Source: a virus. Taken from it: 41,812 nt of DNA. Every line of letters starts with the position of its first letter. Within the stretch, counting starts at the first letter, position 1. Both the position numbers and the translations under genes were made by a program. The notes under the pieces were generated by a model. That model was given only the letters and a program-made list of their open reading frames with translations, did no database searches and had not been told where the DNA came from. Below are positions 1 through 40,277 of the stretch, piece by piece. The DNA lies in the IMG/VR virus record IMGVR_UViG_3300046500_000147, positions 1-41,812 of that record. One strand, given 5' to 3'.

Positions 1-127
1 AGGGGATCAAAAGCTACGCCGAGGTTACGCCGAGAGGAGACTATGTCATTTGATGCCCGCGAGGCCAAGCAACTACAGCCAGGCCAACACTTTACCATTT
101 CCGACTGCCCGGGGCTCCGATTGGAGG
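1..127. repeat. Terminal direct repeat, left copy (circular contig overlap)
   Basis: Bases 1-127 are identical to 41686-41812, including the start of the integrase gene. An exact 127-base end overlap equals a common assembler k-mer length, so I read it as the overlap of a circular contig rather than a biological terminal repeat. The genome is then a 41,685-bp circle and the integrase is intact across the junction. Confidence 0.9.
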
Positions 128-1335
128 CCTCGGCCTCGGCCAAGTCGTGGACGTACCGCTACAAGAGCCCGGTCGATGCCCGCATGCGCCAGGTAAAGAT
201 TGGCGAGTGGCCGAAGATGTCGCAGCATGCGGCCATCACCGAATGGGAAAAGCTGCGCGACATCCGTGTGGCTGGGCGCGACCCGGCCGCGGAGCGGCGC
301 GCTGAGCGACAACGGGAGAAGGAAGAGTTGGCTAAGGCCCGCGAGCAAGAGTCGCGTCGGCTGACTGTGCGCTCGTTGTGCACGCTGTACCTGGAAGGCC
401 ATGTCGACCGCAGCAGGAAGGAGAAGAGCGCTGCCGAGGCGCGGCGTACGCTCACCCGCGTGCTGGACGAACATCCGGACTTCGCAGACCGGGACCCTTC
501 TACGGTCACCCGCTCGGTGGCGTTCAGCCTGCTCGAGCATTACCTCGATACGCCGGTCCAGGCCGGCAGAATCCGCGCTGAGCTGGGCTCGACGTGGGAC
601 TATGGTCACGACGCCGGCAAGCTGGATGAAGAGGTGCCGAACTGGTGGCGCCAGATCATGCGCGGCAAACTGCGCAGCAAGGGGCGCGTGCGCGAGGGCG
701 AGGCAATCGGCACGGCAAAGCGCGTGCTGAATCCGGAAGAAATCGGCAATCTGATCCGCTGGCTGCCGAATTTTTCCCGGCTGGTCGAGGACGTGGTCAC
801 GCTCTACATGTGGACCTGCACCCGGGGCAGCGAGATCCTCGAGATGGAAGTCGCGGACGTCACGCGCGAAGGTGATGGGCTATGGTGGACGGTGCCGAAG
901 GCAAAGACAAAGAATGCTTGGCGCGACAACGCAACAGACCTGCGCGTGCCCTTGGTGGGCCGGGCCGAGGCGATCGTGCAGCGGCGGATCGAGCTGGTGA
1001 AGTCGGGCTACCTATTCCCGTCCGAAGGGCGCAGTGGCCACGTGGAGCAGAAGACGATCAGCGCAATGGTGTGGATGCACCAGCCGTACGCGAAGACTCG
1101 GCCGGAATACCAGCGCGCCAGGTTGCCGGTGTCGCACTGGTCAGTGCACGACCTGCGGCGCACTGGGCGCACACAGCTGGCGGCGCTGGGGTGTCCTGAT
1201 GAGGTGGCGGAAGCGGTGCTGGGGCACATGCCGAGCGGGATTGCAGGGGTGTATAACCGGCACCGCTATGACCAGGAGCGGCGGGAATGGTTGGCCCGCC
1301 TGAGCGAGCATTACGAGAAGCTTGCGAAATTATGA
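43..1335 (+). CDS. int: P4-type tyrosine recombinase integrase (DUF4102 arm-binding)
   Basis: This 430-aa integrase should carry out site-specific integration and excision of the phage circle. The N-terminal ~80 residues match the DUF4102 arm-binding domain of P4-like integrases. A core-binding region (~110-200) follows, then the catalytic domain with the expected residues: R261 (CTRGSEIL), H369-x-x-R372 (VHDLRR), H395 (LGHMP) and nucleophile Y404 (VYNRH). Length fits the family. The ATG has a clear GAGGAGA ribosome site, and two TACGCC motifs lie just upstream at 15 and 26. The 3' end overlaps the convergent alpA-like gene by 6 bp. The probable attP lies directly upstream. Confidence 0.95.
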   Translation: MSFDAREAKQLQPGQHFTISDCPGLRLEASASAKSWTYRYKSPVDARMRQVKIGEWPKMSQHAAITEWEKLRDIRVAGRDPAAERRAERQREKEELAKAREQESRRLTVRSLCTLYLEGHVDRSRKEKSAAEARRTLTRVLDEHPDFADRDPSTVTRSVAFSLLEHYLDTPVQAGRIRAELGSTWDYGHDAGKLDEEVPNWWRQIMRGKLRSKGRVREGEAIGTAKRVLNPEEIGNLIRWLPNFSRLVEDVVTLYMWTCTRGSEILEMEVADVTREGDGLWWTVPKAKTKNAWRDNATDLRVPLVGRAEAIVQRRIELVKSGYLFPSEGRSGHVEQKTISAMVWMHQPYAKTRPEYQRARLPVSHWSVHDLRRTGRTQLAALGCPDEVAEAVLGHMPSGIAGVYNRHRYDQERREWLARLSEHYEKLAKL

Positions 1336-1981: not shown

Positions 1982-3250
1982 TCAGAGCTTGTTGGCTTGC
2001 GCGCGGCCCGTTTCCAGTGCGCGGGCGATGTCGCCCAAGATCGTCCCCGCCACTGCGGCAACGTCTTCGTGCGTCATGTGGTCGGGCATCGTCACGCCGG
2101 CCAGCTTCGCCACGCGCGCCAGGCGCTTCGACAGGAACTCAGCGTCGGACAGCGGTGCAGCAGTCTCACGGCTGGGTGCTGGACCGAGGTCGGAATGTTC
2201 GCAGGACGTGGCAAGGCAGACGTTCAGCTCATGGCCGCACTTGCATTCGTAGCTCGCGCTTGCCGTGGTGGCCTCGACCTCGCCGGACCCTTCGCAGGCA
2301 TCGCATTTGAGCTTGCACTCAATCGGGCCGCACGGGCCTTGCTGCCAATCCGTGTTGCTGCCATCCTTGCATTCTTCGCAGCGAACCTTTGGAGTGCTTG
2401 CCGTGGTGGCCGCAGGCTGGATGACGCCGAGCGCGCGGGCTTCAAATTGCCAATCGTTGTTGATTGGAACCCGGCGGTAATCGTCATAGGTACCGCGCGA
2501 GCACTTCGTCCAGTCGGTCCAGCCTTCGCCCTCGGGCCTCCACATCGGGCGCATACGGCCTTGATACTCGACAACCGCCCCGATCTGATAGGTAGGTGCA
2601 GGCTCATAGTGCACCGGGTCCGTGCCTTCGCTCGGCACGACTTCGAACGGCAGCGCGGCACGCGGCAGTAGGCCAATGATGCGCGGCACGTACTCGTCAA
2701 TGCCATCGGTGCCGATGTTGGTGTGCTCGGTCAGCGCGCACGCGAGAGCTTCCTCGAACTGCTCTTGAGGCGTTCCGACAGCCGCTCCGGCCTGCTGGGT
2801 GGCCTGATGGGTAGCAGTGGCGGTACGCTGACCGCAGACGCCTGCGAGATCACAAGCGGCTTTTGTGTGGGTGCCGCAAGCGCAGCTTTCCGATTTCGCG
2901 GCCGCTTCTTCGTCCGACTCGCGCCCGGAGCCATTGCAGAGGTCGCAGGTTTCGCCGATGTTCGCAATCACGCCTTTGCCGAAGCACTGGCCACACGCTG
3001 TCTTGGAATCCGCAGGAGTTGCAAGGACGTATTCAAGCATCGCTTTAGCTTCGTCGGCATTCATCAGGTGCGTGCCGATAGGCTTTGTGACGTTGGGCGC
3101 AATCCGTGCGCTAAGGCTATCGGGCATCGGCCACGCGAGAAAACGATTCACCAGTTCCGGCAGGGTAGGTGCTTCGGGCGCGGCTTGCCGGGATAGGGCT
3201 TGCTCGGCTTTCAGTGCGCGTTCTGCGCTTTTGGTGGTGGGCTGGTTCAT
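1982..3250 (-). CDS. Early protein with two DnaJ-type zinc modules and an EHTN module
   Basis: 422 aa, unrecognised as a whole. The ATG at 3250 overlaps the previous stop (ATGA); the longer reading frame upstream is rejected. Two CxxCxGxG-style pairs, like the zinc region of DnaJ but without a J domain, are visible: CGQCFGKG (86-93) with CDLCNGSG (102-109), and CEECKDG (291-297) with CDACEGSG (316-323). Further Cys pairs occur around 123-139 and 336-350. Residues ~168-200 (EHTN...DGID) match a segment of the 305-aa early protein at 3753-4670. Residues ~219-275 resemble a common phage early domain ending in W...Y..Y.....W.FEARAL. A zinc-binding scaffold is likely; its target is unknown. Confidence 0.7.
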   Translation of the reverse strand: MNQPTTKSAERALKAEQALSRQAAPEAPTLPELVNRFLAWPMPDSLSARIAPNVTKPIGTHLMNADEAKAMLEYVLATPADSKTACGQCFGKGVIANIGETCDLCNGSGRESDEEAAAKSESCACGTHTKAACDLAGVCGQRTATATHQATQQAGAAVGTPQEQFEEALACALTEHTNIGTDGIDEYVPRIIGLLPRAALPFEVVPSEGTDPVHYEPAPTYQIGAVVEYQGRMRPMWRPEGEGWTDWTKCSRGTYDDYRRVPINNDWQFEARALGVIQPAATTASTPKVRCEECKDGSNTDWQQGPCGPIECKLKCDACEGSGEVEATTASASYECKCGHELNVCLATSCEHSDLGPAPSRETAAPLSDAEFLSKRLARVAKLAGVTMPDHMTHEDVAAVAGTILGDIARALETGRAQANKL

Positions 3251-3752: not shown

Positions 3753-4670
3753 TTACTCCTTCGGGGCGGCGCTGGCCGGGGTAGCGGGAATGGTGCGCAG
3801 AGAACGGATCGGCTCGAAGCATTGCTTCGCCTGATTGAGGAAGCCGACAGTGCTTTCTGCGCTGTAGTTGCCATGCTTCTCGATGCTGGCGATCAGGTTG
3901 TCGAGGATTTCCAACCCTTCGCGCGCTTCCTCCTCTGCCTCGCGCACCTCGGATGCCGCTGCCTGGCTGGCCTGTGCGCCGTCCATAGGGCCTGGAGAAG
4001 TGAGATAGCCTTGTTCGCACCACTCTGCAATTTCCGACGCTTCCACTGGCTTGAGTGCGGCGTGATTGATAGCCCATGCCATCGTCATCGCATGAGTGTC
4101 GATGCCGTCTTGGCTCAGGTTCGTGTGCTCGGCCAAAAAGGTAGCCAGCGCGTTGTCGATGCGATCTTCGCCAAGGTCGTAGGTCGGCGCGCTGGCATCG
4201 GTGGTAGTTGTAGCGGCGCGGTCGATGCGCTCGATCTCGGCCAGGATGAGTGCGGCGGCTTTCACCAGGTCGGCGCGCCGGCTCTTTGGTTTGAACCAGC
4301 CGATTGCCCAAGAGTTCGGCCAGACGCACCGCACCTCGGCGGTCATCCCGCCCGGGCCAAATTCTTCCATGACGTCGCGTTCAGCCTGATCGATTGTTGC
4401 GGCGAACGCGTAGGCGGCCGCGGCTTTCGCGAGCGAATAGTCGGTATGCTCGCTGTCGTGGTCCGGCGTCCAGTGCTCTATTTCGATCTGCCGCCGGCGC
4501 TCGGCCAGCACATCGTATGTGGCGGCGCTCACAACGTCGTTACTCGGACCGAGAACCAGCACCGGCTGGTCGCCGGATGGGTAGCTGCTGCGCGTCGACC
4601 CATTGGCGGCGCGGTGCGCCGAAACGCCGAGAGGAATGGCTGGGTGTTCATTTTTCGGATGGTTCTCCAT
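3753..4670 (-). CDS. Conserved phage early protein (ERRRQ...KAAALILAEIERIDR domain)
   Basis: 305 aa. Residues ~54-152 form a domain widespread in phage early regions: AERRRQIEIEHWTPDHD, an Ala-rich helix, WPNSWAIGWFKPKSRRADL, then KAAALILAEIERIDR. I know this pattern from many prophages but no proven function. Residues 171-204 carry an EHTNLSQDGID module shared with the 422-aa zinc protein at 1982-3250. The C-terminal part is a probable coiled coil rich in Glu (AEEEAREGLEIL). The ATG at 4670 has GGAG upstream and overlaps the previous gene by 23 bp. Confidence 0.75.
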   Translation of the reverse strand: MENHPKNEHPAIPLGVSAHRAANGSTRSSYPSGDQPVLVLGPSNDVVSAATYDVLAERRRQIEIEHWTPDHDSEHTDYSLAKAAAAYAFAATIDQAERDVMEEFGPGGMTAEVRCVWPNSWAIGWFKPKSRRADLVKAAALILAEIERIDRAATTTTDASAPTYDLGEDRIDNALATFLAEHTNLSQDGIDTHAMTMAWAINHAALKPVEASEIAEWCEQGYLTSPGPMDGAQASQAAASEVREAEEEAREGLEILDNLIASIEKHGNYSAESTVGFLNQAKQCFEPIRSLRTIPATPASAAPKE

Positions 4671-4923
4671 CGCTGGCTCCTTTATGGTCCGAGGGTTTGA
4701 TCTGAATTTCGGCGCTGTCGACGCCTTCCGTTTTCCCGGCCAGATACACTGTCATCTGGAAGTCGCAGCCGGACAGGTTCACCGAAAGGCATTGAATGAA
4801 TTGGCTCAGTCCCTGGTGCAGCACTGGGCGCGAGCAGTGTAGGGACTTCAGCAGCGCTGCCTGGTGCCTGTAGACGTATGGATCGAGAGGCTCGTCCTGG
4901 TTATTGCTAATAGGTCCAGTCAT
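4648..4923 (-). CDS. Small hypothetical early protein (91 aa)
   Basis: 91 aa, unrecognised. The ATG at 4923 overlaps the upstream stop (ATGA), and the end overlaps the next gene. A helical N-terminal half (YRHQAALLKSLHCSRPVLHQ) is followed by a possible strand (FQMTVYLAGKTEG) and a polar tail. Translational coupling on both sides supports it. Confidence 0.6.
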   Translation of the reverse strand: MTGPISNNQDEPLDPYVYRHQAALLKSLHCSRPVLHQGLSQFIQCLSVNLSGCDFQMTVYLAGKTEGVDSAEIQIKPSDHKGASDGEPSEK

Positions 4924-5603
4924 GGCGCAATCTTCTTGAACTCGACCACCCACACCCAAGGGTTGGCGTCCCAGCTGCCGGCGCCGTTGATGCTCACCCA
5001 CAGCGTCCGATAGCTTTCCTTCGCTGTTGAGCAGGTCAGGCTAACCACGTCCTTACCCATCGGTTCGCTGTAGTCGCGCCAGAACGTGCCTTCGCTGTGC
5101 AGACTCTCGATGCCCTCGGCGCGCGCTGCAGCCTCGCTGATATCCTGCAGCCGCTCGACGCGCACCGACACGATCTCCAGTAGGATGCGGCTGGCGGCGC
5201 GTGGCATGTGGATGCTGGGCTTCCACTTCAGCCCGTAGTCCTTACGGGCCTCATCGCCGTACGAACCGGGCCGGCAGTCGGCCGCGAACGCGTAGCGCTG
5301 CAGCTTCCCGTCCTGGTCGCGATGCTCGACGCCGGTGCCGAAGGTGTCGAGGAACGTCTCGCGCACCCAAAGGCGGTCGCCGGGCACGCCGAACTTGCAG
5401 CGGAAGACCGCGCCCTTCGGCTCTGGCTCGCGCGTCATCAGGCCGACCCACTCGCGGCCGGCCAGGTCGCCGTTCATCGGTAGGACGTCGAGCGGCTGCA
5501 AGCGCAGCGCGCGCCGCGTCTGCGTCTTGCTGCCGTCGAGAAGCGCGCGCACCATGGCGCCGCTGAAGAGGATGCCGCGTTCGGCTGGAGTATTGGTCTT
5601 CAC
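4920..5603 (-). CDS. ASCH/YqfB-like phage protein
   Basis: 227 aa from the GTG at 5603, which has GAGGTG six bases upstream; an in-frame GTG at 5612 lacks such a site. The start ERGILFSGAMVRALLDGSKTQTRR, then GDRLWVRETF and KWKPSIHMPRAASRI...VRVERLQDIS, is the hallmark of phage proteins related to the ASCH RNA-binding fold: a K-T-x-T-R-R strand and an M-P-R/ASR motif. Members are often annotated as morphogenetic or hypothetical protein without evidence. Near full family length. It sits in the early operon, so a role in nucleic-acid metabolism is more likely than one in assembly. Confidence 0.75.
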   Translation of the reverse strand: MKTNTPAERGILFSGAMVRALLDGSKTQTRRALRLQPLDVLPMNGDLAGREWVGLMTREPEPKGAVFRCKFGVPGDRLWVRETFLDTFGTGVEHRDQDGKLQRYAFAADCRPGSYGDEARKDYGLKWKPSIHMPRAASRILLEIVSVRVERLQDISEAAARAEGIESLHSEGTFWRDYSEPMGKDVVSLTCSTAKESYRTLWVSINGAGSWDANPWVWVVEFKKIAP

Positions 5604-5613
5604 GGTGCACACC

Positions 5614-6327
5614 TCACGCCACGAGCTGCGCCGCCGCGGGAAGGTTGATTGGCGGCGGCGTCAGCTCGTCGAAGTCGCCCATGTCGAGGTCGCGCATCAG
5701 GAAGTCGCGGAAGGCGTCGACACCATCGTTTTCGATCTCGTACTCGACGGAACGATGGAATGTGGTCGATATCGGGCCCGGTGTGCCGACCACATATAGC
5801 CGGCGCCGTTCGCCATCCGGCGGCAACGCCCGCGACGAATCTGCGAGCAGGATGAAGTTGGTTCGGTTGGGGCGGCGCACTGCGGCTCGCCCAGCGGTGC
5901 TCTGCATCATGTCTCTCACCGTGATCAGTCCTTTGAGGCGGTCCAGGTAGCCCGGCGATAGATCTCCGTCGATGATCATCAGGCGCGTTCCAACGGGCCA
6001 GCTGGCGATCGTATCGAGCGGCCGCATGTACGTGCGGGCACCGCCATCTTCGTAGAGCTCCATGACGATGCGTTCGAAGAATAGCCGTTTCCCGGCCCCT
6101 TCCGGTCCTGCAATGACCAGCGCGCGCGACATCTTCGCGCCAGGGTTGCGCAGCGGGTAGGCCAGCCAGCGCATGATCCACAGGCATCTGTCTTCGTCGA
6201 AATCGCACAGGTACAGGAGCAGGGCTTTGATGTTGGCGTAGTTGACGGGCTGGTGGTGGGTTCGGTCGGTGAGCGCCGCGAGCGCTGCCCTGACGACTCC
6301 GCGAATTTTCAGGACATAATTTTTCAT
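5614..6327 (-). CDS. Degenerate DUF5906/D5-like helicase paralogue (pseudo-ATPase)
   Basis: 237 aa, clearly homologous to the C-terminal ATPase of the phage's own primase-helicase (13401-16130). IMRWLAYPLRNPGAKM (51-66) matches ILRWLAYPLQHPGAKM there, and the alignment runs on to LFFERIV/LFFQDVL. Key residues are lost: Walker A reads GPEGAGKR (74-81) with Arg where Ser/Thr is needed; Walker B reads LMIIDGD rather than LFMLFEEV, losing the acidic pair; the sensor Asn region reads LLADSS. The GERRRL arginine region persists. There is no primase half. The frame is fully open, so it looks maintained, not decaying. It may bind helicase subunits or DNA as a regulator; ATP hydrolysis is unlikely. 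Confidence 0.8.
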   Translation of the reverse strand: MKNYVLKIRGVVRAALAALTDRTHHQPVNYANIKALLLYLCDFDEDRCLWIMRWLAYPLRNPGAKMSRALVIAGPEGAGKRLFFERIVMELYEDGGARTYMRPLDTIASWPVGTRLMIIDGDLSPGYLDRLKGLITVRDMMQSTAGRAAVRRPNRTNFILLADSSRALPPDGERRRLYVVGTPGPISTTFHRSVEYEIENDGVDAFRDFLMRDLDMGDFDELTPPPINLPAAAQLVA

Positions 6328-6349: not shown

Positions 6350-6535
6350 TCAGGCGGCCTTCTTGCCGGCCGATTCGTGCACGCACTTGGTGCAGGCGCC
6401 GTACTGGTTCAGCTGCTTCGCGGTCGTGACCGCACCGCACGCGCAGCGTTTCCGGCGGAGCGTGATCGGTGTGCTGGCGGCCGTGTTCGCGCGGTACAGC
6501 TCCGTACTGCTCGGGTTGGCGGTGCCGAATTTCAT
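6350..6535 (-). CDS. Small zinc-ribbon-like protein (61 aa)
   Basis: 61 aa, starting in an ATGA overlap with the methyltransferase stop. Residues ~31-53 contain CACG and, after 15 residues, CTKC, a plausible four-cysteine zinc knuckle preceded by a basic stretch (LRRKR). Such mini zinc ribbons in phage early operons are usually nucleic-acid or protein adaptors. No specific function is assigned. Confidence 0.65.
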   Translation of the reverse strand: MKFGTANPSSTELYRANTAASTPITLRRKRCACGAVTTAKQLNQYGACTKCVHESAGKKAA

Positions 6536-8292
6536 GCCGCCCTCGCCAGTAACTGTTCGTGCTCGATGTTCGCCCGGATCAGGGCGACGGCCGGCGGCGG
6601 CGATACGCTGTTGCCGATCATGCGCACCTGGTCACTGGCCGACAGGCGCTTCGTCACCGCCTTACCGCGCTTGTTCACGTAGGTGTAGAACGGGTCGAGG
6701 ATGTAGTCGCGGCGGAAGCCTTGGGCATTCGCGAGCTCGCGCGGCGCCAGCATGCGCAGGCCGATGTCGACGACTTCCATCAGCTCGCCGTTGATCGTCA
6801 CCAGTTCCGGACACTCGGCGTCCTTCAGGCTCGGGCAATACTCGCGCAGGAACGCGCGCACCTGCTCGCGGCGCGCGGCGGTTTGGCCCGGGTTGGCCAG
6901 CGTGGTGCGCATCTCGGCGTGATGCTGCCCGCCGGCGCTGACGGTGGCCAGCGGGTCGTTCACTGCCGCGGCGGTACTGGTGCCGCGCAGCTTGACCAGG
7001 TTGCTGGTCACGACCGCATGGCGGTTCTCGGTGACGATTGTCGCAAGCGGCGCCGCCGCGTCGTAGGCGCCGTTGTTGTTGCTCTTGTTGTCGATCGTAA
7101 CCAGGTGCGCCGTGACGAGCGAGTTGTGGTCGGTCGTCGTGACGGTCGGCATAGGCTGCTCGACGCTGGCGCCGACCACGCCCTTGTAGTGCTTCGCCAG
7201 GTAGGCGCAGGTGACGCCCATGCGGTCCTTCGTGACGACGGTCGGCAGCGGCCGGTCGATGGCAACGTTTTGGCTGCCGCTCTTGTAGTACTGGACCAGC
7301 GACGCGGAAACAAGCGCGAGCTCGCCGCGGTTTGCGCAGGTGACGGTCGGAAGTGGCTGGTCGATCGAATTGATCCGGTCCGAGCCCTGGTGCGTCAGCG
7401 GGACGATGAAGGGTCGCGCAGCATCCTTGACGTAGCGTTCGAAGCCGCGGCCCACGCGGCGCAGTGTCGCTGTCGCCAGGGGCTTCTTGCGATCGAAGAT
7501 CGAGCGGCATGGGATCGCCCAGTCGATGCAGTCGGCCGCCGTCACGAACGGCAGCAGCTTGCCCGACTTCACCTCCAGCGAATCGGGATGTCCGTGCGTC
7601 GGAGCTGGCCAGCGGATTGCGATGCCGTCGCGGCGCATCACCATGAACAGGCGCTTGCGGATCGTTCCGGCGCCGTAGTCGCACGCGCGCAGCACGCGCC
7701 ACTCGACCTTGTAGCCCAGGCCCGCGTAGATCCGCTCGAGCGGGAATTCCTCGCCGAGCGTGTCGCGGATCTCCTGGACGTCCGGGTGGTCCGGTGACAG
7801 GCCCGTGGTCAGCGCAGCGATGAACGCTTTGAAGGTGCGGCCCTTGTGGGCCTTGATCGGGCGTCCGGTCTCGTCCAGCGGACCCCAGCCCTCGAACTCC
7901 TCGACGTTCTCGAGGAACATCAGGCGCGGCGCCAGCTGCACACCCCACTTGAGCACGACCCAGGCCAGGCCGCGTACCTTCTGGTTCAGGATGTTGAAGC
8001 CCTTGGCCTTCGAGAAGTGCGTGCACGTCGGCGAGAACCAGGCCGCGCCCAGAGGGCCGTCGCCGATCGCGCGCAGCAGATCGACCAGGAATACGTCTTC
8101 ACGATAGTGGCGCGTGGTCGGGTGGTTTGCCGTGTGCATTGCCAGCGCGGGGCCGTCGTGATTGACGGCGATGTCCGGATCACGTCCGAAGGCTTCTCGG
8201 ATTGCTTCGCTGGCGCCACCGCCGCCGGCGAAGTTGTCGGCGATGCGCTCATGCCCGAACCCGAGCGGTAGGGTAAAGTCGTCACGCTTCAT
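6532..8292 (-). CDS. C5 cytosine-specific DNA methyltransferase with repeat-rich target region
   Basis: 586 aa, expected to transfer a methyl group from S-adenosylmethionine to C5 of cytosine, probably protecting phage DNA. Motif I FAGGGGASEAI (21-31); motif IV SPTCTHFSKAKG with catalytic C90; motif VI ENV (128-130); motif VIII IRKRLF (211-216); motif X RMIGNSVSPP near the C-terminus. Between VIII and X is an expanded region (265-470) with six copies of a P-(L/M)-(A/P)-T-(V/I/A) motif, at about 270, 313, 348, 380, 415 and 447, spaced 32-43 residues. No partner restriction enzyme is seen, so it is an orphan methylase. Length exceeds a minimal Dcm because of the repeats. Confidence 0.92.
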   Translation of the reverse strand: MKRDDFTLPLGFGHERIADNFAGGGGASEAIREAFGRDPDIAVNHDGPALAMHTANHPTTRHYREDVFLVDLLRAIGDGPLGAAWFSPTCTHFSKAKGFNILNQKVRGLAWVVLKWGVQLAPRLMFLENVEEFEGWGPLDETGRPIKAHKGRTFKAFIAALTTGLSPDHPDVQEIRDTLGEEFPLERIYAGLGYKVEWRVLRACDYGAGTIRKRLFMVMRRDGIAIRWPAPTHGHPDSLEVKSGKLLPFVTAADCIDWAIPCRSIFDRKKPLATATLRRVGRGFERYVKDAARPFIVPLTHQGSDRINSIDQPLPTVTCANRGELALVSASLVQYYKSGSQNVAIDRPLPTVVTKDRMGVTCAYLAKHYKGVVGASVEQPMPTVTTTDHNSLVTAHLVTIDNKSNNNGAYDAAAPLATIVTENRHAVVTSNLVKLRGTSTAAAVNDPLATVSAGGQHHAEMRTTLANPGQTAARREQVRAFLREYCPSLKDAECPELVTINGELMEVVDIGLRMLAPRELANAQGFRRDYILDPFYTYVNKRGKAVTKRLSASDQVRMIGNSVSPPPAVALIRANIEHEQLLARAA

Positions 8293-11672: not shown

Positions 11673-11840
11673 ATGGATACGTTGAAAATGAAAGTACTGG
11701 CCGCCTTCGACAGGATGGATGAACAGGCCCGCGAGAGATTTGCGAAGATTGGTGAGCAATATGCGGTGCGGTGGCCGGAAAAGGTACCAACCCAGCCCCG
11801 TCTACTTCGCCTGGTTGTTTCCGACACTGCGAAGCGGTGA
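11673..11840 (+). CDS. Small helical protein convergent with the repressor gene (55 aa)
   Basis: 55 aa from the ATG at 11673, which has GGAAG upstream. The sequence LKMKVLAAFDRMDEQARERF followed by AKIGEQYAVRWPEK is strongly helical, then PRLLRLVVS. Unrecognised. Its last 39 bp overlap the 3' end of the CI-like gene on the other strand, so the transcripts are antisense to each other. It may be a small lysogeny regulator; a chance frame cannot be excluded. Confidence 0.5.
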   Translation: MDTLKMKVLAAFDRMDEQARERFAKIGEQYAVRWPEKVPTQPRLLRLVVSDTAKR

Positions 11841-12200
11841 TCGTTCTTTCTCACTCACGTCGGCAGCCACTTCCATTTCTTCCTTTCCGCGCTCGCTCGA
11901 TGCGCGAAACTGGGTCAGCAGGTTCATTTCCCGTTGCGTGACCCACACCAGGTCCATACGTTCAGGCTTGGCTTCAGCCTCCGGGCGAGGCTCGGGCGCT
12001 TTCTCCGCCTCTCGTGGCGTGTCCAGGTAGAGTGTGCCCATGTTGTAGTCGGTCTCGAGCCGGCGTGCCGCGCGCTCGCCAAACGGTGCCGTCCCGACGA
12101 CCAGCTGCGAAAAGTAACTACGCTCGGCCGCGGGGGTCGGGTGCGTCTCTAGCCAAGCCTTCAGGTTCGCTCGCCTGAGCTCTGTAAGTTCCATCTTCAT
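11802..12200 (-). CDS. CI-like phage repressor, short form without peptidase domain
   Basis: 132 aa from the ATG at 12200. The N-terminal half reads as a small helix-turn-helix of phage repressor type (ELRRANLKAWLETH, AAERSYFSQLVVG, FGERAARRLETDYNMGTLYL). A charged linker and a C-terminal helix pair (VTQREMNLLTQFRASSERGK) follow, as in short repressors of Burkholderiales phages. There is no S24/LexA-type peptidase, so self-cleavage with RecA is not expected. It is divergent from the Cro-like gene, with five operators between. A possible -10 TAAACT 8 bases from the ATG suggests a leaderless message. It is the best candidate for the master repressor. Confidence 0.78.
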   Translation of the reverse strand: MKMELTELRRANLKAWLETHPTPAAERSYFSQLVVGTAPFGERAARRLETDYNMGTLYLDTPREAEKAPEPRPEAEAKPERMDLVWVTQREMNLLTQFRASSERGKEEMEVAADVSEKERSPLRSVGNNQAK

Positions 12201-12208
12201 GGGGCGCG

Positions 12209-12303
12209 AGTTTAGCATTTTCTAAATTAATACTCACTTGACAACAATTTAGTAATTACTTGATTAGTAGTTACTTGACGGCAGGTTTAGCAAACACTAA
12301 ACT
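12209..12303. promoter_or_regulatory. Lysis-lysogeny switch: five operators and divergent promoters (cluster C)
   Basis: Operators C1 TTTAGCATTTTCTAAA (12211-12226), C2 ATTAATACTCACTTGA (12226-12241), C3 TTTAGTAATTACTTGA (12248-12263), C4 ATTAGTAGTTACTTGA (12263-12278) and C5 TTTAGCAAACACTAAA (12286-12301). Centre spacings are 15, 22, 15 and 23 bp. Rightward cro promoter: -35 TTGACG (12275-12280), 17 bp, -10 TAAACT (12298-12303), predicting a start near the ATG at 12310. Leftward repressor promoter: weak -35 GTGAGT (12237-12232), 17 bp, -10 TAAACT (12214-12209). A weak repressor promoter beside a strong cro promoter resembles lambda PRM/PR. Confidence 0.8.
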
Positions 12304-13175: not shown

Positions 13176-13414
13176 TGGCCGGCCAATTCTCTCCGGCGAC
13201 TTTATCCATGCAAATGTCGGGCATGTACACCCCCAACCTTGAAACAATTTTAGCCGCTCGTCCACACGATACGATTGGGCAACCGCAGCCAGTGCACGCG
13301 GGCGGCATCGAACGCGTCAATAGTCCGCGCGAAAAGGCTGCAATGCTGGCGCGCCTAACGATCCAGCTGGCGATGCTGGGCGATGAACAGGAGGCCTGCG
13401 ATGGCCACGCTTGA
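13175..13414 (+). CDS. Small hypothetical protein between CII-like and primase-helicase (79 aa)
   Basis: 79 aa, unrecognised. The ATG shares its A with the previous stop (TAATG) and the end overlaps the primase-helicase start by 14 bp, so it is coupled on both sides. The C-terminal helix (PREKAAMLARLTIQLAMLGD) is the only clear element; the rest looks flexible. A replication accessory is a guess from position. Confidence 0.6.
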   Translation: MAGQFSPATLSMQMSGMYTPNLETILAARPHDTIGQPQPVHAGGIERVNSPREKAAMLARLTIQLAMLGDEQEACDGHA

Positions 13415-16130
13415 CCACATCATCGCCCAGATGCGGGCCGAAGGCTTGCCCGCGCTGCCGGACGGGCATCCGGTCCTCGATGGCAAACACCATAAGTTCG
13501 GGCCGAAGAAAAAGGCCTGGTATGCGCTGCGCGAGATGAAAGTGGAGGGCAGGGTGCTCGGCATCTGCGGCGCGTTCGGCGTCTGGCAGGGCGATGACAA
13601 CGGCGCGATCCCGGTCACGATCGACTGGGAGGGTGTGACGCCGCAAGAGCGCGCCGCGGCCGAGCAGAAGCAGGCGGAACAGCAGCGCGCCGTCGAGGAA
13701 CAGCGGCGACGCGAAGCGGAGCTGGCCGCCAATCGGGCACGCGAAGAGTGGCGGGTCGCGGTCGAGTCGGCGCAGCACGGCTACCTGGAGCGCAAGCGCA
13801 TCGGCCACGAGGCCACGCGCGTCTCGAGCAAGGGCGCGCTGCTGGTCCCGGCGCGCAAGTACAGCCGGGACGGCGCCGTCATGGCGGCGCTGCAGAAGAT
13901 CTGGCCGGACGGCAGCAAGCGGTTCAGCAGCGGCTGCGACATGGTCGGCGCGTGTTGCCTGCTCGGCACCATCGACGATGACACGCCCGTCATCGGGGTC
14001 GCCGAGGGCTACGCCACCGGCGAGACCGTGCGCATGGCCCTGGACTTCGGCATCCCGGTCATGGTCGCATTCAACGCCAACAACCTGCTGCCCGTGGCGC
14101 GCCAGCTGCGCCAAGACTTCCCGCACGCCCACTTGCTGTTCCTGGCCGACGACGATGCGCGCATGGCGGCGCGGCTGCGCGAGGCGCTGCTCAAGGACTA
14201 CGAGGTCGAGTGGGAGCCGGTGATCGACGACGCCGACCACCGGCTGGAGGCGAGCACCGGCGACCTGGTCACCGTGCGCGCCCGCTGGCGCCGAGACGCC
14301 ACCGGTACCGACTACATCGAGGCCGACATCCGAGCCGGCCGCAGCATCAAGACCCGTATCTTCCGAAATGCAGGCGTCTCGTGCTCACGCGCCGCCGTGG
14401 CGGAAGTTGGTAATGCATCGGTGGTGTGGCCGCGGTTCGCCGACCGGTCCGACGATAAGTGGTCCGACTTCAACGATCTGTTCTTGGCCGAGTCGCTCGA
14501 CGCGGTGCGCGACCAGGTGCAGGACGCGCTCTCCCGCGCCCTCTCGCAGGAGAGCGCGCCGAGCGACGAGGCCAGCATCCCGGCGCATTTCGACGAGGCG
14601 CCGGCGCCGGTCGCACCCTCAGCAGACCCGGCAGCGGAGGAGGCGGCCGCGATGCGTGTGCCGACGCTGGAGGTGCTGCTGTCGCACTTCTGCCTGATCT
14701 ACCCGACCACCGACGTGTGGGACAGCCTGCGCAAGCAGCGCCTGAAGCGCTCGGCCTTCACCGCCTGGGTAGGGAAAGAGCTGGCTGTGCAGTGGGAGAA
14801 GGATCCGAAGCGCCGCACCATCCTGCGCGAGTCGCTGCCAACCCTCGTCGGCGGCCGCGCCGTCGAAGGGGGAGCGGGGGGCGGCAAGCTGGGCGAGATG
14901 CTCGACAACCTGACGCTGCTGCGCGGGACCGAGACGGTGTGGGACGCGATCGGGCAGCAGGTGATGTCGCTTGGCGCCGTGCGTGCCGACTATACCGCCG
15001 AGCTGACTTCGAAGTGGCAGGAGCATGCCCAGCGCAAGACCATCGAGGCCAGGAACCTGGTGTTCGACCCAACCCAGCAGGCCGATCCGGTCACCCACGT
15101 GAACATCTTCGGCGGCTGGCCGCTGACGCCGAAGGACCGCCCTGACCTGGTAGGCCCGATCCTCGCGCTCCTAGCCTCGCTCTGCGAAGCGGAGGACAAG
15201 GCAGCCGAATGTGTGGAGTGGATCCTGCGCTGGCTGGCTTATCCGCTGCAGCACCCTGGCGCCAAGATGCAAACCGCGCTGCTGGTCTTCGGCGAGAAGC
15301 AGGGCACCGGCAAGTCGCTGTTCTTCCAGGATGTGCTGTTGCCGATCTACGGCGAGTACGGCGGCGTGGCCAGCCAACACCAGCTGGACTCCACCTTCAC
15401 GGCCTGGCGCAGCCGCAAGCTGTTCATGCTCTTCGAGGAGGTGCTCTCCCGGGATGACCGCTACAGCCACAACGGCACGCTCAAGTACATGATCACCGGC
15501 AAGAGCATGAGCATCAACCAGAAGAATCTGCCGGAGCGCGACGAGAAGAACCACATGAACAGTGCGTTCCTCTCGAACGAGCCGCAGCCGATCCCGATCG
15601 AGCTCGAGGACAGGCGCTTCATGGTGATCGAGGCACGGCGCAAGCAGGCGAAGGAGTTCTACGACAGCGTCCAGGCCGCGATCGCCGCCGGCGGTTGCGA
15701 GGCCTTCTACCACTTCCTGCTGAACCTGCCGCTGGAAGACTTCAACGAACACACCAAGCCGCCGATGACGCTGGCCAAGGAGCGCGTGATCGAGTTCGGC
15801 CTGAACAGCTGGATGAGCTTCCACCGGGCCTGGAAGGATGGCTACCTGGACGCGCCGTACTGTTCTTGCCTCTCGGAAGACCTCTACATCATGTACAAGC
15901 GCTGGTGCGACAAGAGTGGAGAAAAGCCACTCACTCTGTGCAAGTTCGCCGGCCTGATTGCCAGCCGCGAGCACAAGGCGAAGAAGAGCGTCGCGGTCGA
16001 CAGTAAGCATAAGAAGACGAGGATGGTGTTCGTCGTTGAAAACCCTGACCACCCGGACGACCTGGAGGCGCAGATAGCCAAGTTCAGGAAGCTGGGTGAC
16101 GTCCGTGCGGACCGGGCATTGCAGGGTTGA
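13401..16130 (+). CDS. Replicative primase-helicase (TOPRIM primase + DUF5906 helicase)
   Basis: 909 aa from the ATG at 13401, which has AGGAGG upstream; an in-frame ATG at 13383 is less good. The N-terminal part carries a TOPRIM-type primase region: VIGVAEGYATGETVRMAL (Glu ~202) and HLLFLADDD (acidic triad ~250-252). After a linker comes a D5-like/DUF5906 SF3 helicase: RWLAYPLQHPGAKM, Walker A GEKQGTGKS (~631-639), Walker B LFMLFEEV, sensor NSAFLSNEPQ and arginine region EDRRFMVIEA. It should prime and unwind phage DNA at its origin. The iteron cluster begins in its last codons. A degenerate copy of the helicase half is at 5614-6327. Confidence 0.93.
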   Translation: MATLDHIIAQMRAEGLPALPDGHPVLDGKHHKFGPKKKAWYALREMKVEGRVLGICGAFGVWQGDDNGAIPVTIDWEGVTPQERAAAEQKQAEQQRAVEEQRRREAELAANRAREEWRVAVESAQHGYLERKRIGHEATRVSSKGALLVPARKYSRDGAVMAALQKIWPDGSKRFSSGCDMVGACCLLGTIDDDTPVIGVAEGYATGETVRMALDFGIPVMVAFNANNLLPVARQLRQDFPHAHLLFLADDDARMAARLREALLKDYEVEWEPVIDDADHRLEASTGDLVTVRARWRRDATGTDYIEADIRAGRSIKTRIFRNAGVSCSRAAVAEVGNASVVWPRFADRSDDKWSDFNDLFLAESLDAVRDQVQDALSRALSQESAPSDEASIPAHFDEAPAPVAPSADPAAEEAAAMRVPTLEVLLSHFCLIYPTTDVWDSLRKQRLKRSAFTAWVGKELAVQWEKDPKRRTILRESLPTLVGGRAVEGGAGGGKLGEMLDNLTLLRGTETVWDAIGQQVMSLGAVRADYTAELTSKWQEHAQRKTIEARNLVFDPTQQADPVTHVNIFGGWPLTPKDRPDLVGPILALLASLCEAEDKAAECVEWILRWLAYPLQHPGAKMQTALLVFGEKQGTGKSLFFQDVLLPIYGEYGGVASQHQLDSTFTAWRSRKLFMLFEEVLSRDDRYSHNGTLKYMITGKSMSINQKNLPERDEKNHMNSAFLSNEPQPIPIELEDRRFMVIEARRKQAKEFYDSVQAAIAAGGCEAFYHFLLNLPLEDFNEHTKPPMTLAKERVIEFGLNSWMSFHRAWKDGYLDAPYCSCLSEDLYIMYKRWCDKSGEKPLTLCKFAGLIASREHKAKKSVAVDSKHKKTRMVFVVENPDHPDDLEAQIAKFRKLGDVRADRALQG

Positions 16131-23793: not shown

Positions 23794-24729
23794 ATGCCCC
23801 AGATGAACAATGCCCAGGCGCGCGTGGTGGACCCGGTCCTGACCTCGGCCGCGCAGGGTTACAAAAACGCCGAATTCGTCGGCGGTGCGCTGTTTCCGAA
23901 AGTGCCGGTCTCCCAGCGTGGCGGCAAGATCCTTTCGTTCGGCAAGGAAGACTTCATGCTGTACGCGACCGGTCGCTCGCCGGGCCAGAACACCAAGCGC
24001 GTCACCTTCGGCTACCAGGGTGCAGCGTACGCGCTGGAAAGCCACAGCCTCGAAGGCCTGCTGCCGGTCGAGACCCTGCAAGAAGGCCTGGCTGTGCCCG
24101 GCATCGACATGAGCATGGTCACCGTCAACAAGACCCAGAACATCATCGCCCTGCGCCTCGAAAAAGCCCAGGCCGACGCAGCGCGCAATGCTGCCGCCTA
24201 TGGCGCGAACAACAAGGTGACCCTGTCGGGCACCTCGCAGTGGAGCGACACCTCCAGTGACCCGGTCGCAGCTATCGAAGCCGGTAAGGAAGCCGTGCGC
24301 AAGCAGATCGGCAAGCGTCCGAACGTCGCCGTCATCGGTGCTGCCGTGTTCGCGGCGCTGAAGACCCACCCGAAGGTCCTGGACCGCCTCAAGTACACCG
24401 GTCGCGACGTCGCTACGCCGGAGCTGCTGGCCTCCCTGTTCGGCCTGGCCGAGGTGAAGGTCGGCGACGCCGTCTACGCATCCGACGACGGCACCTTCAA
24501 CGACGTCTGGGGCAAGGACGTGGTCCTGGCCTACACCGAAGTCGGCACCGTCGCCGAGCAGGGCGCGCCCTCGTACGGCTACACCTACCAGCTGGGCGGC
24601 TACCCGATCGTCGAGGAGCCGTACTTCGAACGCAACAACAAGAGCTGGGTGTATCCGGTCACCGACGAGGTAGCCCCGGTGGTCGCGGGCGCCACGGCCG
24701 GCTACCTGATCCAGAACGCGGTCGCGTAA
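23794..24729 (+). CDS. Major capsid protein
   Basis: 311 aa, position and length right for the main head protein (HK97 fold expected). NNAQARVVDPVLTSAAQGYK, FVGGALFPKVPVSQRGGKIL, YALESHSLEGLLP and the C-terminal GYTYQLGGYPIVEEPYFERN followed by WVYPVTDEV resemble major capsid proteins of lambda-like phages of Proteobacteria. It follows the decoration gene after 34 bp, with its own AAGGAATC ribosome site. Abundant codons and strong spacing fit a highly made product. Confidence 0.88.
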   Translation: MPQMNNAQARVVDPVLTSAAQGYKNAEFVGGALFPKVPVSQRGGKILSFGKEDFMLYATGRSPGQNTKRVTFGYQGAAYALESHSLEGLLPVETLQEGLAVPGIDMSMVTVNKTQNIIALRLEKAQADAARNAAAYGANNKVTLSGTSQWSDTSSDPVAAIEAGKEAVRKQIGKRPNVAVIGAAVFAALKTHPKVLDRLKYTGRDVATPELLASLFGLAEVKVGDAVYASDDGTFNDVWGKDVVLAYTEVGTVAEQGAPSYGYTYQLGGYPIVEEPYFERNNKSWVYPVTDEVAPVVAGATAGYLIQNAVA

Positions 24730-24763
24730 CGACGGCTGGTCCAACCACTTAACGGAGTCCAAC

Positions 24764-24943
24764 ATGAAAGTAAAAACCCTCGGGCCGGTCCAGCACGACG
24801 GCAAACCCGTGAAGGTGGGCGCCACGCTCGACCTCCCGGAAGACGCGGCGACGCAGCTGATCGACGCCGGTGCTGCGGAAGCAGTCGGTGGCGACAAAGC
24901 CGCAAGCACCGCCAAGACCGACAACGGCGGCGACGGCCAGTAA
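24764..24943 (+). CDS. Small conserved head-region protein (DUF7210-like, 59 aa)
   Basis: 59 aa. The ATG at 24764 has GGAG upstream. MKVKTLGPVQHDGKPVKVGA followed by LDLPEDAATQLIDAGAAEAV is a short, recurring phage sequence found just after the capsid gene. A single small beta/alpha domain is followed by a polar tail. Function unknown; possibly a neck or head-completion accessory. Confidence 0.7.
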   Translation: MKVKTLGPVQHDGKPVKVGATLDLPEDAATQLIDAGAAEAVGGDKAASTAKTDNGGDGQ

Positions 24944-26861: not shown

Positions 26862-27218
26862 ATGTCGCAATACAAACTTGCCGTCGCAGCCTTCCTGGCT
26901 ATCCCGATGATCTTCGACCTCGCCGATGCCGATAAGACGAAGTCGTTCAACTTCACGCTGCAGGCCAAGCGCCTGGGCGAGGACGAGTTCCAGACCCGCA
27001 TCAAGGGTGAGAACGGCCTGCCGACCAACGAGAAGATCAAGGAGCTGCTGCTCGACATCACCACCGGGTGGAAGGACCAGACCCTGGTGCTGGACGAGCA
27101 GGAACAGCCGGCCGCCTTCTGCCGCGAGGCGCTCGAGGTGATGTTCCAGACGCCGGGCGTCCTCGATATCGCCACCCGCAGCTACCTGAAGGAAGTGGCG
27201 GCCCGCGCAAAAAACTGA
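26862..27218 (+). CDS. Tail assembly chaperone, short form (gpG-like)
   Basis: 118 aa. KTKSFNFTLQAKRLGEDEFQ and NEKIKELLLDITTGWKDQTL followed by FCREALEVMFQTPGVL are typical of gpG-like tail chaperones, which coat the tape measure protein during tail assembly. The last codons GCA AAA AAC precede the TGA stop and form a canonical slippery site, so a fraction of ribosomes should make the longer G-T form. Confidence 0.9.
   Translation: MSQYKLAVAAFLAIPMIFDLADADKTKSFNFTLQAKRLGEDEFQTRIKGENGLPTNEKIKELLLDITTGWKDQTLVLDEQEQPAAFCREALEVMFQTPGVLDIATRSYLKEVAARAKN
27209..27215 (+). other. -1 ribosomal frameshift site A AAA AAC
   Basis: AAAAAAC in the zero-frame phase gcA AAA AAC, immediately before the TGA stop of the chaperone gene. 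A -1 slip joins the downstream frame, which encodes a chaperone extension without its own credible start. Same arrangement as lambda G/GT. Confidence 0.9.
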
Positions 27219-33394: not shown

Positions 33395-34296
33395 TTAACA
33401 GTTTAGGAGCGCTGGTTCCGATCGAGCTCACGACGGCGATGCTCACCAGCAGTTCGGTCGCCGAGAACGACTACGGCGTCTGGTCCAGCAGTACGACGTA
33501 CGCACTCAACGCGTTTTGCATCAGCCCGATAACCCATCGGATCTACCAGAGTCTGGTGGCGGGCAATGTCGGTCATGACCCCACGGACCTGAAAAACCAG
33601 AGTGGGTCAGCGCCGTACTGGCTGGACTACGGCCCGACGAATCGCTGGGCCATGTTCGATGGCGAAGTGAGCACGCCGACCGTCGCTGTGTCGCCACTGA
33701 CGGTTGTGCTTAGGGCCGGCATCGTCACAGACGTCTACTTTGCTGGAGTAGAGGCGACGACAGCAAGGGTGATCGTGAGGGACGCGCCAGGCGGTAACGT
33801 CATTTTCGATCAGACGACCACGATGGAAGCTAGCGCGCCGGCAGACTATTACGAGTACTTCTTCGATCCGTTCAAGCCGCTGACGGATCTGCTGGTGAGT
33901 GGCATTGATCCTTACGGCAATGCCGAGGTCACCGTGGAGCTTGCCGACCCATCTGGAACTGTGAAGTGCGGAATGATGGCCGTCGGCAGCGTGAAGATGC
34001 TCGCTGCTACGCAATATGGCCTGAAGGCCAAACCCAAGGCGTACAGCTATATCAAGACCGATGACTTCGGAAACACGAAGATCGTGCGCCGGAAAAAATC
34101 AACCGACATGACAGCCTCGGCCTGGCTGAAGCGCTCCGAAGCTCCCCAGGTTCTAAGCACGCTTCAGGGTCTGCTCGATGTTCCGGCTGTGTGGATCACG
34201 CCGGATGTGCGTTGCTTTGGCCTGGGTAGCGGCGAGATCTCGTATGACCACCCGCAGGACTGCCAACTATCTGTGACTGTACAAGGACTTATCTGA
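33391..34296 (+). CDS. Tail-tip protein, unassigned
   Basis: 301 aa from TTG at 33391, which overlaps the tape measure stop and has CGGAGG upstream. Beta-rich: YALNAFCISPITHRIYQSLV resembles carbohydrate-binding or fibre modules that display a short W/Y-rich motif, and the C-terminal half reads SYIKTDDFGNTKIVRRKKST then QVLSTLQGLLDVPAVWI. By position it takes the place of the lambda M/L genes. I do not recognise a named family. Confidence 0.65.
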   Translation: MINSLGALVPIELTTAMLTSSSVAENDYGVWSSSTTYALNAFCISPITHRIYQSLVAGNVGHDPTDLKNQSGSAPYWLDYGPTNRWAMFDGEVSTPTVAVSPLTVVLRAGIVTDVYFAGVEATTARVIVRDAPGGNVIFDQTTTMEASAPADYYEYFFDPFKPLTDLLVSGIDPYGNAEVTVELADPSGTVKCGMMAVGSVKMLAATQYGLKAKPKAYSYIKTDDFGNTKIVRRKKSTDMTASAWLKRSEAPQVLSTLQGLLDVPAVWITPDVRCFGLGSGEISYDHPQDCQLSVTVQGLI

Positions 34297-35168: not shown

Positions 35169-36215
35169 ATGGCCAATATCTACGCTCTCCCTTCGCTGAC
35201 TACCTGGAATACCACTGCTGGAGGCTGGTCGAACACATCCGGCGGCACCAGCAATGGCCGCGTACCGAATGCCACTACCGACACTGTTATTTTTGACGCC
35301 AACTCTGGGCCGGCGCGGCAGATCGCGGTCACGGCTTCACCGCAGATTGCAACCATGGTTTGCACCGGCGCCAGCATGACCCTCACCGGCAGCCCGATTA
35401 CGCTCTTTGGCGCCGGTCCGCATGATCTCAGCGGATTCACATCGATCCCCGGCTTGACGGTGTCGGCAGGCGGCAATCTGAAGCTCGGGGCGTGCCCTAT
35501 TACAGGTTCGCTTCTCGTTAACAACGCCAGTGCAGCGACAACGCTACAGTCGAACCTCACGGTGAATGGCACGATTACGGTGCAGGGCGGCGGCGGGCTT
35601 TTTGGCAATGGCTACGACGTCTCGTGCGGAACCTTGTCCAGTTTCCTTGGTAATGACGGAAGTGGTGGCTATTTTGGTTCGCCCGCCGTGCTGGGATCCG
35701 GCACTTGGACGTTTACTGGTACAGGCACCCTAGTGCAGATCGGGTCCACTCTCCAGTCGGCCTCCTCGACGGTCAAAATAAGCTGTCCAGACGCTGGCAA
35801 CAAGTCGTTTGAGGTTTCCTACCTGAGCTCTACCGCAACATTCTGGGTAGCCGATACGGGGACTGGAACGCTCACTATCCCGTCGCAGTTCACCATCGGT
35901 ACCTTCAAAGCCACCAAGGGAAGCATCCTATTCAGCACTCCAGGAGGCTCCTACACGTTCACGGCGACCAACTGGCAGGTCGCGGGGACGAGCACTTCCT
36001 ATGTTTCGCTGGCCAGCACAGGCGCAGCCAGCAACTTCTATGCGTTCCTTGCCTCGCCTAACACGACGACGCCCATCTATCTCGACTACTGCAAGTTCAA
36101 TCACGTGGGTGGGAACGTGAACTTGAATTTCTATGCTCGATCGTGGATCGACGCGGGCGGGATGGTGAATATCAAGCAGTTCGTGGCCAAGCCTAACTTC
36201 ACCGCATTCTTTTAA
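35169..36215 (+). CDS. Beta-helix-like tail spike/fibre protein
   Basis: 348 aa with AGGGGAC upstream of the ATG. The W-N-T-T-A-G-G-W-S start, D-T-V-I-F-D-A-N-S-G and repeats rich in G/S/T/N (LTVNGTITVQGGGGLFGNGY) suggest a right-handed beta-helix or a fibre. The C-terminal third (TIPSQFTIGTFKATKGSILF, VNLNFYARSWIDAGG) fits a fibre tip. Its base composition is less GC-rich than that of the head genes, as often seen for host-range proteins. The likely receptor-binding protein. Confidence 0.65.
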   Translation: MANIYALPSLTTWNTTAGGWSNTSGGTSNGRVPNATTDTVIFDANSGPARQIAVTASPQIATMVCTGASMTLTGSPITLFGAGPHDLSGFTSIPGLTVSAGGNLKLGACPITGSLLVNNASAATTLQSNLTVNGTITVQGGGGLFGNGYDVSCGTLSSFLGNDGSGGYFGSPAVLGSGTWTFTGTGTLVQIGSTLQSASSTVKISCPDAGNKSFEVSYLSSTATFWVADTGTGTLTIPSQFTIGTFKATKGSILFSTPGGSYTFTATNWQVAGTSTSYVSLASTGAASNFYAFLASPNTTTPIYLDYCKFNHVGGNVNLNFYARSWIDAGGMVNIKQFVAKPNFTAFF

Positions 36216-39724: not shown

Positions 39725-40277
39725 TCATTCTCCCGTCGATCATCCGTGCCAGCGCCTCGTCGCCCCACAGGACCGTGTATTCGTCCTCGCCGTGCGTGTC
39801 AATGCGCGGCAGCAGCCCGCCCGCCCCGACGCGGCCGGAGAACGTGCGCCCGTCCATTGTCTCGATGTAATACGGCACGCCCTCGATCGGCGGCGCCATC
39901 AGCCGCGGCTGCTCGTCATAGATGAGGATCTGTGCCGAAGCGGCTCCCAGTGAGCTCGACCGGCGCGCAACCTCGTCCGGAACTAGGGCGAACAGCTGAA
40001 ACTTCACTGTCTGCTCCGCGATCAGCTTGGGTATGGGACTGCAGTTGCAGATGCACAGGTCATCGCTCAGCGCGACCTCCCTGCCGTTGAGTTGCTGGGG
40101 CATCCGCGGCGGGACGCATTGAATGGCGCCCGTAATGCCGCAGACAGGACAGTCGACAGGATCGCCGTCGCGCGCCAGAGGAGCGCCGTCGAGCGTGTAC
40201 CAGGTGGCTGACGCCCTCACGGTGCCGCCCGCCGTGGTCTTTGCTCCTGCCCTGATGTGATATCGCCGCTGGATCAT
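39717..40277 (-). CDS. PAAR-domain T6SS spike-tip protein with effector-adaptor extension
   Basis: 186 aa from the ATG at 40277 (GAGG upstream). The N-terminal ~90 residues are a PAAR domain: RRYHIRAGAKTTAGGTVRAS, LARDGDPVDCPVCG, GREVALSDDLCICNC; it caps the VgrG spike of a type VI secretion system. The C-terminal part (ILIYDEQPRLM, VPYYIETMDGRTFSGRVGAG, DEYTVLWGDEA) has the transthyretin-like extension often attached to PAAR proteins that carry cargo. It overlaps the Tae4 gene, so tip and cargo are made together. It is not a phage tail tip by sequence. Confidence 0.88.
   Translation of the reverse strand: MIQRRYHIRAGAKTTAGGTVRASATWYTLDGAPLARDGDPVDCPVCGITGAIQCVPPRMPQQLNGREVALSDDLCICNCSPIPKLIAEQTVKFQLFALVPDEVARRSSSLGAASAQILIYDEQPRLMAPPIEGVPYYIETMDGRTFSGRVGAGGLLPRIDTHGEDEYTVLWGDEALARMIDGRMNG

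Follow-up and report, generated by a model that had tools for sequence, protein, structure and literature searches.

The question raised by this locus is why a phage that encodes a complete replicative primase-helicase should carry, as a separate gene, a small helicase domain lacking catalytic residues. The window, i.e., the whole 41,812 nt stretch that was analyzed, is an IMG/VR provirus record. It has a phage integrase gene on the left (positions 43–1335, plus strand) at the end of a leftward operon, followed by a repressor region and by rightward replication and late genes. A repressor-like regulator (phrog_5736, positions 11802–12218, minus strand) is at the start of the divergent early region. 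No named phage was found to be close in DNA sequence to the structural region of the window. The right end has a host-type imuA gene (NF033429, positions 40658–41410, plus strand), and the record thus includes bacterial flank.

Location and identity of the small gene

The small gene is at positions 5614–6327 on the minus strand. It is an intact open reading frame with an ATG start and no internal stops, and it encodes a protein of 237 aa (P0001). An earlier sequence-only reading had described an intact frame in the early operon, oriented opposite to the helicase gene, and both statements hold: the gene is part of the leftward operon and the 915 aa replicative primase-helicase gene is on the plus strand (positions 13383–16130, with the DUF5906 domain placed by sequence searches at approximately 15153–15776). 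The upstream neighbor in the operon is a C5-cytosine DNA methyltransferase gene (positions 6532–8292, minus strand). Directly downstream is an ORF of PHROG 874, function unknown (positions 4920–5612, minus strand), followed by a 77 aa ORF with no family match (positions 4648–4881, minus strand). The operon also contains a DUF2303 gene and genes without assigned function.

A BLASTP comparison of P0001 with the primase-helicase shows 33% identity to its DUF5906 domain over 206 residues (E 2e-29), which is far beyond chance, and a search of the window finds only these two DUF5906-type places. With the Pfam DUF5906 profile (PF19263), P0001 has an E value of 1.2e-5 and the primase-helicase 5.3e-18. 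The P0001 score of 26.3 bits (28.2 bits in the genome search) compares with a curated gathering cut-off of 27.6, which the scores of most of its relatives exceed. The peptides IMRWLAYPLRNPGAKM and ILRWLAYPLQHPGAKM, on which the earlier comparison of the small protein with the true helicase was based, are present, as are the Walker A sequence GPEGAGKR, the Walker B sequence IIDGD and the loss of the sensor Asn. Such genes match primase profiles yet are not primases, which calls for caution in annotation.

Family and ancestry

Scans of IMG/VR and of 84,980 genomes with P0001 or a two-row alignment gave a single close relative, because the automatic peptide patterns performed poorly. Relatives were collected by degenerate DNA scans of IMG/VR with the WLAYPLxxPGAKM block and with a GxxAFR signature of the small proteins, followed by searches of whole records. 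The resulting set has 25 stand-alone members: the window, G001–G022, L037 (the same as G045) and G033. All the relatives are from IMG/VR virus records, which vary in completeness. A tblastn search of INPHARED gives 32 records, mostly annotated as full primase or hypothetical protein, a count by match in which stand-alone and full proteins are not separated. A plasmid search gave no match. Literature searches on stand-alone DUF5906 proteins found nothing, and no earlier description of the family as a whole was found.

The architecture is uniform. The domain is followed by a C-terminus of approximately 10 residues in every member except G003, where the frame is 122 aa longer. The N-termini are short, mostly with MK or MN starts and a basic helix. 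Its place in the relatives is also the leftward early operon, and wherever the replication gene is visible too, the two genes are on opposite strands. The small gene often adjoins the integrase or precedes a small conserved ORF, the counterpart of the 77 aa ORF of the window, which in roughly half of the relatives follows it immediately or after a short distance.

An IQ-TREE phylogeny of 77 domains places the stand-alone proteins in one clade (support 100/97) on a stem of 0.85 changes per site. The clade includes two rows that had been labeled as full proteins, L020 and G003; both show the stand-alone gene with its frame running on. The first branch is G004, which is also the least degenerate member (GKS, Walker B AEDD). 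The window pairs with G001 (support 100/99), and the window's own helicase is placed elsewhere. The sequence-only reading had called the gene a second copy of the helicase domain. The two DUF5906 domains are homologous, but the tree rejects a duplication of the phage's own helicase. Because that helicase lies outside the stand-alone clade, the small gene is by its phylogeny an old paralogue, from elsewhere in the family, which these phages carry along. The family is clean, with one origin, one signature substitution and a constant gene position.

Compared with the phage DUF5906 primase-helicases (PF19263; phrog_2249 and phrog_4762, including that of the window), P0001 has a homologous domain and shares the WLAYPLxxPGAKM block, but it is stand-alone, catalytically degenerate and in a separate clade.

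State of the catalytic motifs

Motif columns were counted in 53 full-length helicases and the 25 stand-alone proteins, L037 and G033 having been added to a first count. Walker B (LMIIDGD in the window, positions 5962–5982, minus strand) is changed across the family. The catalytic position is Glu in 52 of the 53 full-length proteins and Asp in one; in the stand-alone proteins it is Gly in 24 and Asp in one. The sensor-1 Asn, present in all 53 full-length proteins, is found in 3/25 stand-alone proteins and is replaced by Asp in the window (LLADSS). The segment at positions 5779–5880 (minus strand) contains this strand together with a retained Arg-finger pair (RRR(L) in the window), each Arg of which is kept in 24/25 members. 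The P-loop Lys is also retained (53/53 full-length, 24/25 stand-alone). The hairpin Lys (KN-hairpin) is less constant, with 53/53 in full-length and 13/23 in stand-alone proteins, and is Ala in the window.

In the window the P-loop (GPEGAGKR, positions 6085–6108, minus strand) has Arg in place of the Ser/Thr that follows the Lys, and the sequence-only reading took the missing Ser/Thr as a sign of inactivity. This argument fails. The residue after the Lys in full-length proteins is Ser in 28/53 and Asn in 25/53, and the NrS-1 helicase has a Walker A sequence of GKG yet binds phosphate and hydrolyses nucleotides (PMC7102993). Loss of the Walker A Ser/Thr is therefore rejected as proof of inactivity. 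The GKN form, which replaces GK[ST] in approximately half of the full-length DUF5906 helicases (L004, L007, G002 and others), makes motif-based calls of inactivity unsafe in this family.

The degeneration of Walker B and sensor-1 is family-wide. The relatives have intact Walker motifs only in part: a Walker A Ser/Thr is present in 18/25, but Walker B is degenerate in 24/25, so the degenerate state is old and has been maintained, and recent decay does not account for it. The earlier proposal of a pseudo-ATPase thus gains support from the motif counts, in that the Glu and Asn are lost across a monophyletic family under purifying selection and the Lys and Arg pair are kept. Such a protein may bind nucleotide, should not hydrolyse it and could offer an Arg finger to a neighbor, which would be the expected signature of a regulatory subunit.

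A stand-alone SF3 motor domain made beside a full viral protein is known from adeno-associated virus (AAV Rep40/Rep52), where Rep40 comes from the gene of the full protein and is active as an ATPase. A catalytically active mini-helicase of this kind would agree with the similar fold and extent of P0001, with the presence of Rep40 in the fold-search list (Z ~10) and with the kept P-loop Lys. It is nevertheless highly improbable here, as the catalytic Glu is Gly in 24/25 members and the sensor-1 Asn is lost in 22/25. Of the features of an active SF3 helicase, P0001 has the catalytic Lys and the Arg finger and lacks the Walker B Glu and sensor-1 Asn. Unlike Rep40, with which it shares the fold match, it is the product of a separate gene and looks inactive.

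Selection on the small gene

Maximum likelihood estimates of omega with F3x4 codon frequencies give 0.079 for the window and G001 (2dlnL 106 against omega = 1) and 0.05–0.18 for 11 other pairs of small proteins. This represents strong purifying selection in related phages and argues against recent decay. The full helicase domains have values of 0.006–0.03 in phage pairs where both genes were measured, so by these estimates the small gene is functional but evolves faster than the helicase. NG86 estimates in one subclade reach 1.1 and hint at relaxed selection, but maximum likelihood with codon frequencies gives 0.07–0.18. The NG86 values near 1 are attributed to saturated, GC-rich third positions; the maximum likelihood estimate allows for the high GC content. 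A pseudogene is rejected by the maximum likelihood omega.

Motif losses do go on in some lineages, e.g., Lys to Met in L037 and the GKR, GKH and GKK forms, and there are P-loop-less relatives in G060 and G110. These could be read as steps in the decay of a functionless gene fragment. That such a process explains the family is very hard to reconcile with omega values of 0.05–0.18 and with 25 open frames, none with an internal stop, that share the same architecture and C-terminal end.

Structural model and comparison with NrS-1

The AF2 model of P0001 (63-row alignment) has a pLDDT of 87.7 and a pTM of 0.83. The best matches among solved structures are those of the NrS-1 helicase (6lrb, 6k9e and 6k9c, Z ~19.8–19.9), followed by the SaPI5 primase-helicase, ASFV PrimPol and poxvirus D5. 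Model residues 28–235 align with NrS-1 residues 402–616, with Z 19.9 over 199 residues for 6lrb. In NrS-1 the Head comprises residues 304–391, the Body 404–593 and the Tail 619–718 (PMC7102993), and the match thus represents the Body and linker without Head or Tail.

P0001 and NrS-1 share the Body fold, the P-loop Lys and the Arg-finger pair (profile E 9e-15). P0001 differs in having no Prim/Pol, Head or Tail region; it ends approximately 10 aa past the Body domain and has neither a primase domain nor the Head/Tail oligomerization regions. Three residues differ as well: Gly occupies the position of the Walker B Glu (aligned NE in NrS-1), Ala that of the KN-hairpin Lys, and no Asn remains at sensor-1. 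In NrS-1 the Arg finger is R555/R556, and Arg mutants show a 7- to 15-fold decrease in hydrolysis rate and no obvious unwinding (PMC7102993). NrS-1 without the Tail is monomeric and does not unwind DNA, and the Tail is needed for hexamers (PMC7102993). Because P0001 is, in the model, a helicase Body without Head and Tail, unaided entry into a ring appears doubtful.

An addition to the Body in this family is an N-terminal basic, partly amphipathic helix (residues 2–20, positions 6268–6324, minus strand; AF2 pLDDT ~85). In the 19 relatives examined this helix is always basic (net charge +1 to +6) and ranges from hydrophobic to amphipathic. It is possible that the helix provides a membrane or partner contact.

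Replication systems of the carriers

The replication system can be classified in 23 carriers. Thirteen encode a DUF5906 helicase (of three subtypes), nine a VapE-type helicase and one, G003, a lambda-O-type system with an O-like initiator and no SF3 helicase. An SF3-class ring helicase is therefore encoded in 22/23. The VapE/PriRep1 helicases (PF05272; 7pds, 7ola) share the SF3 fold and Arg-finger position with P0001 but are distant from it; they represent the working helicase of the nine carriers and not the small gene. In G003, a single case, the small gene is strongly degraded, with GKR, a Walker B of RG, one finger Arg lost and a very long branch.

The helicase type changes at least nine times on the small-protein tree (minimum possible 4, shuffled mean 12.3). 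Near neighbors on the tree have different helicases: G010 VapE and G011 DUF5906, G002 DUF5906 and G015 VapE, G016 VapE and G033 DUF5906. These changes reject a strict cognate-helicase partner, and on the tree the small gene is one that outlives swaps of the replication module and is not dedicated to one helicase. In G027 and G028, two other near-complete records from this lineage, neither DUF5906 nor VapE is present and the small gene is missing as well, although the numbers are small. SF3 rings in general would fit as the target, as this agrees both with the lack of a single partner and with the presence of an SF3 ring in 22/23 carriers, the exception having a degraded copy.

The same distribution bears on two narrower explanations. 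The small protein could act solely against rivals, as a superinfection or satellite factor that is a dominant-negative fragment of the helicase type of competitors. The gene belongs to the int-cI operon and not to the replication module, and it is kept while the phage's own helicase is swapped, so that closely related small genes sit with different helicases. DUF5906 is also mentioned in two papers on phage satellites (PMC10803314, PMC10111431). We consider this restriction to rivals doubtful, since 13/23 classifiable carriers depend on a DUF5906 helicase of their own, which the small protein could poison, and since P0001 has no match to the PADLOC defence models at E 0.1. The second explanation is that the protein sets the timing or copy number of the carrier's replication, as an accessory subunit or a brake that tolerates different helicase types. 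It would account for the SF3 ring in 22/23 carriers and for degradation of the copy in the sole carrier without one. The location of the gene outside the replication operon, the decoupling of its tree from helicase type and its absence from most phages with the same helicase (two strong and one divergent copies in 48 mostly DUF5906 phage records) make this, too, less than probable.

The G003 carrier without an SF3 helicase would also be compatible with an adaptor that uses the fold as a scaffold for an unrelated task, whether in recombination, in taking over the host or in counter-defence directed at another AAA+ protein, and that is perhaps membrane-bound through the N-terminal helix. The neighboring methyltransferase, DUF2303 and early genes of unassigned function, and the basic, partly amphipathic helix in 19/19 relatives, agree with such a role. 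It is unlikely in that a mere scaffold has no need of the Arg pair and P-loop Lys, which are kept, and G003 is precisely the degraded copy.

Proposed function

The small gene probably represents a regulator or blocker of helicase rings and not a broken spare copy. The best-fitting, though tentative, form of this proposal, based on the motif and carrier comparisons, is a pseudo-ATPase that would modulate or poison SF3 rings through its Arg-finger face, acting by binding and not by catalysis. From its motifs the protein probably still binds nucleotide, and its Arg-finger face could meet the ATP site of a different subunit. The likeliest partners would be SF3-class replicative helicase rings of the DUF5906 or VapE type, which might be capped, stalled or left unassembled. 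This would restrain replication, either that of the carrier itself at some point, or that of co-infecting phages and satellites whose helicases are of this class, or both. A precedent for the mode of action is ORF104 of phage 77, which blocks self-assembly of the AAA+ loader DnaI (PMC4887207). The analogy is one of action only, i.e., a block of assembly by binding to an AAA+ protein; the loader that ORF104 targets belongs to the host, and ORF104 itself is not known as an SF3 domain. The recurrence of finger segments alone in early ORFs of sister phages, where P-loop halves do not recur, also counts in favor of poisoning through the finger face.

Several observations weigh against ring poisoning. 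Tail-less NrS-1 is a monomer and the small proteins are Tail-less, so that entry into a ring is not assured. The at least nine helicase-type changes show no co-evolution with one partner, and DUF5906 and VapE rings are only distantly alike, which makes a single inhibitor for both hard to envisage. Retention of the Arg pair may have to do with the fold, and the G003 observation is a single case. The possible joining of helicase hexamers, as suggested in the sequence-only reading, would face two obstacles, the missing Tail and the varied replication proteins of the carriers. Nothing specific was found in support of the loader role that was suggested as an alternative.

Viral pseudo-enzymes derived from a replication helicase would regulate or sabotage ring helicases by a novel route. 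Action on rivals would add interference with replication to the ways in which phages compete, and action on the phage itself would amount to a new replication brake. The protein is small enough to express and belongs to a clean family, which makes ring poisoning in trans by a dead SF3 subunit directly testable.

Isolated Arg-finger segments in sister phages

Profiles of the sensor-1/Arg-finger segment identify extra places outside the primase and small genes; the ORFs concerned run counter to the primase gene. Two segments end small ORFs, at positions 4109–4186 of G023 (minus strand, E 7e-10) and 32770–32844 of G055 (plus strand, E 2e-8). Others are at 24710–24790 in G038 (plus strand, E 5e-8), at 33381–33458 in G010 (plus strand, E 1e-7), where the segment is at the N-terminus of an Rv2179c-like exonuclease, and at 26977–27042 in G005 (minus strand, E 3e-5), where it follows a prokaryotic-ubiquitin domain. 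The segment at 3000–3086 in G079 (minus strand, E 4e-6) includes a Gly-bearing Walker-B-like strand but no P-loop, and a weak match is found at 40047–40118 in G054 (plus strand, E 1e-3). Matches in G040, G043, G050 and G108 (E 4e-4 to 6e-3) are weak and were not counted as modules, and one at position 8669 of G045 was dropped because of a TAG inside it. The P-loop-less relatives mentioned above, at 7397–7918 in G060 (minus strand) and 35227–35316 in G110 (plus strand), are divergent stand-alone proteins of 248 aa, complete except for the P-loop, that keep DRRWFV.

As a mirror control, the more conserved half from WLAYPL to the P-loop was searched for in 80 records; apart from the P-loop-less small proteins, no isolated copy was found below E 8e-4. 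The asymmetry is thus not a detection effect of that kind. A speculative extension, which we regard as improbable, is that selection acts on the Arg-finger face as such. These phages would then spread a finger donor that acts in trans and plugs AAA+/SF3 rings, and they would do so with several graded forms. The forms would include dead whole Body domains, P-loop-less versions and a peptide of approximately 28 residues (the sensor-1 strand and DRRFxVV). The peptide would occur alone or fused to early proteins, such as the exonuclease in G010 and the ubiquitin-domain protein in G005.

A separate set of small ORFs of approximately 83–118 aa, located in the early regions of L230 (minus strand), L236, L175 and L189 (plus strand), has a good P-loop (GPQGCGKS...VVDDWEPG...DTLALT). 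These ORFs are at times near an isolated finger segment.
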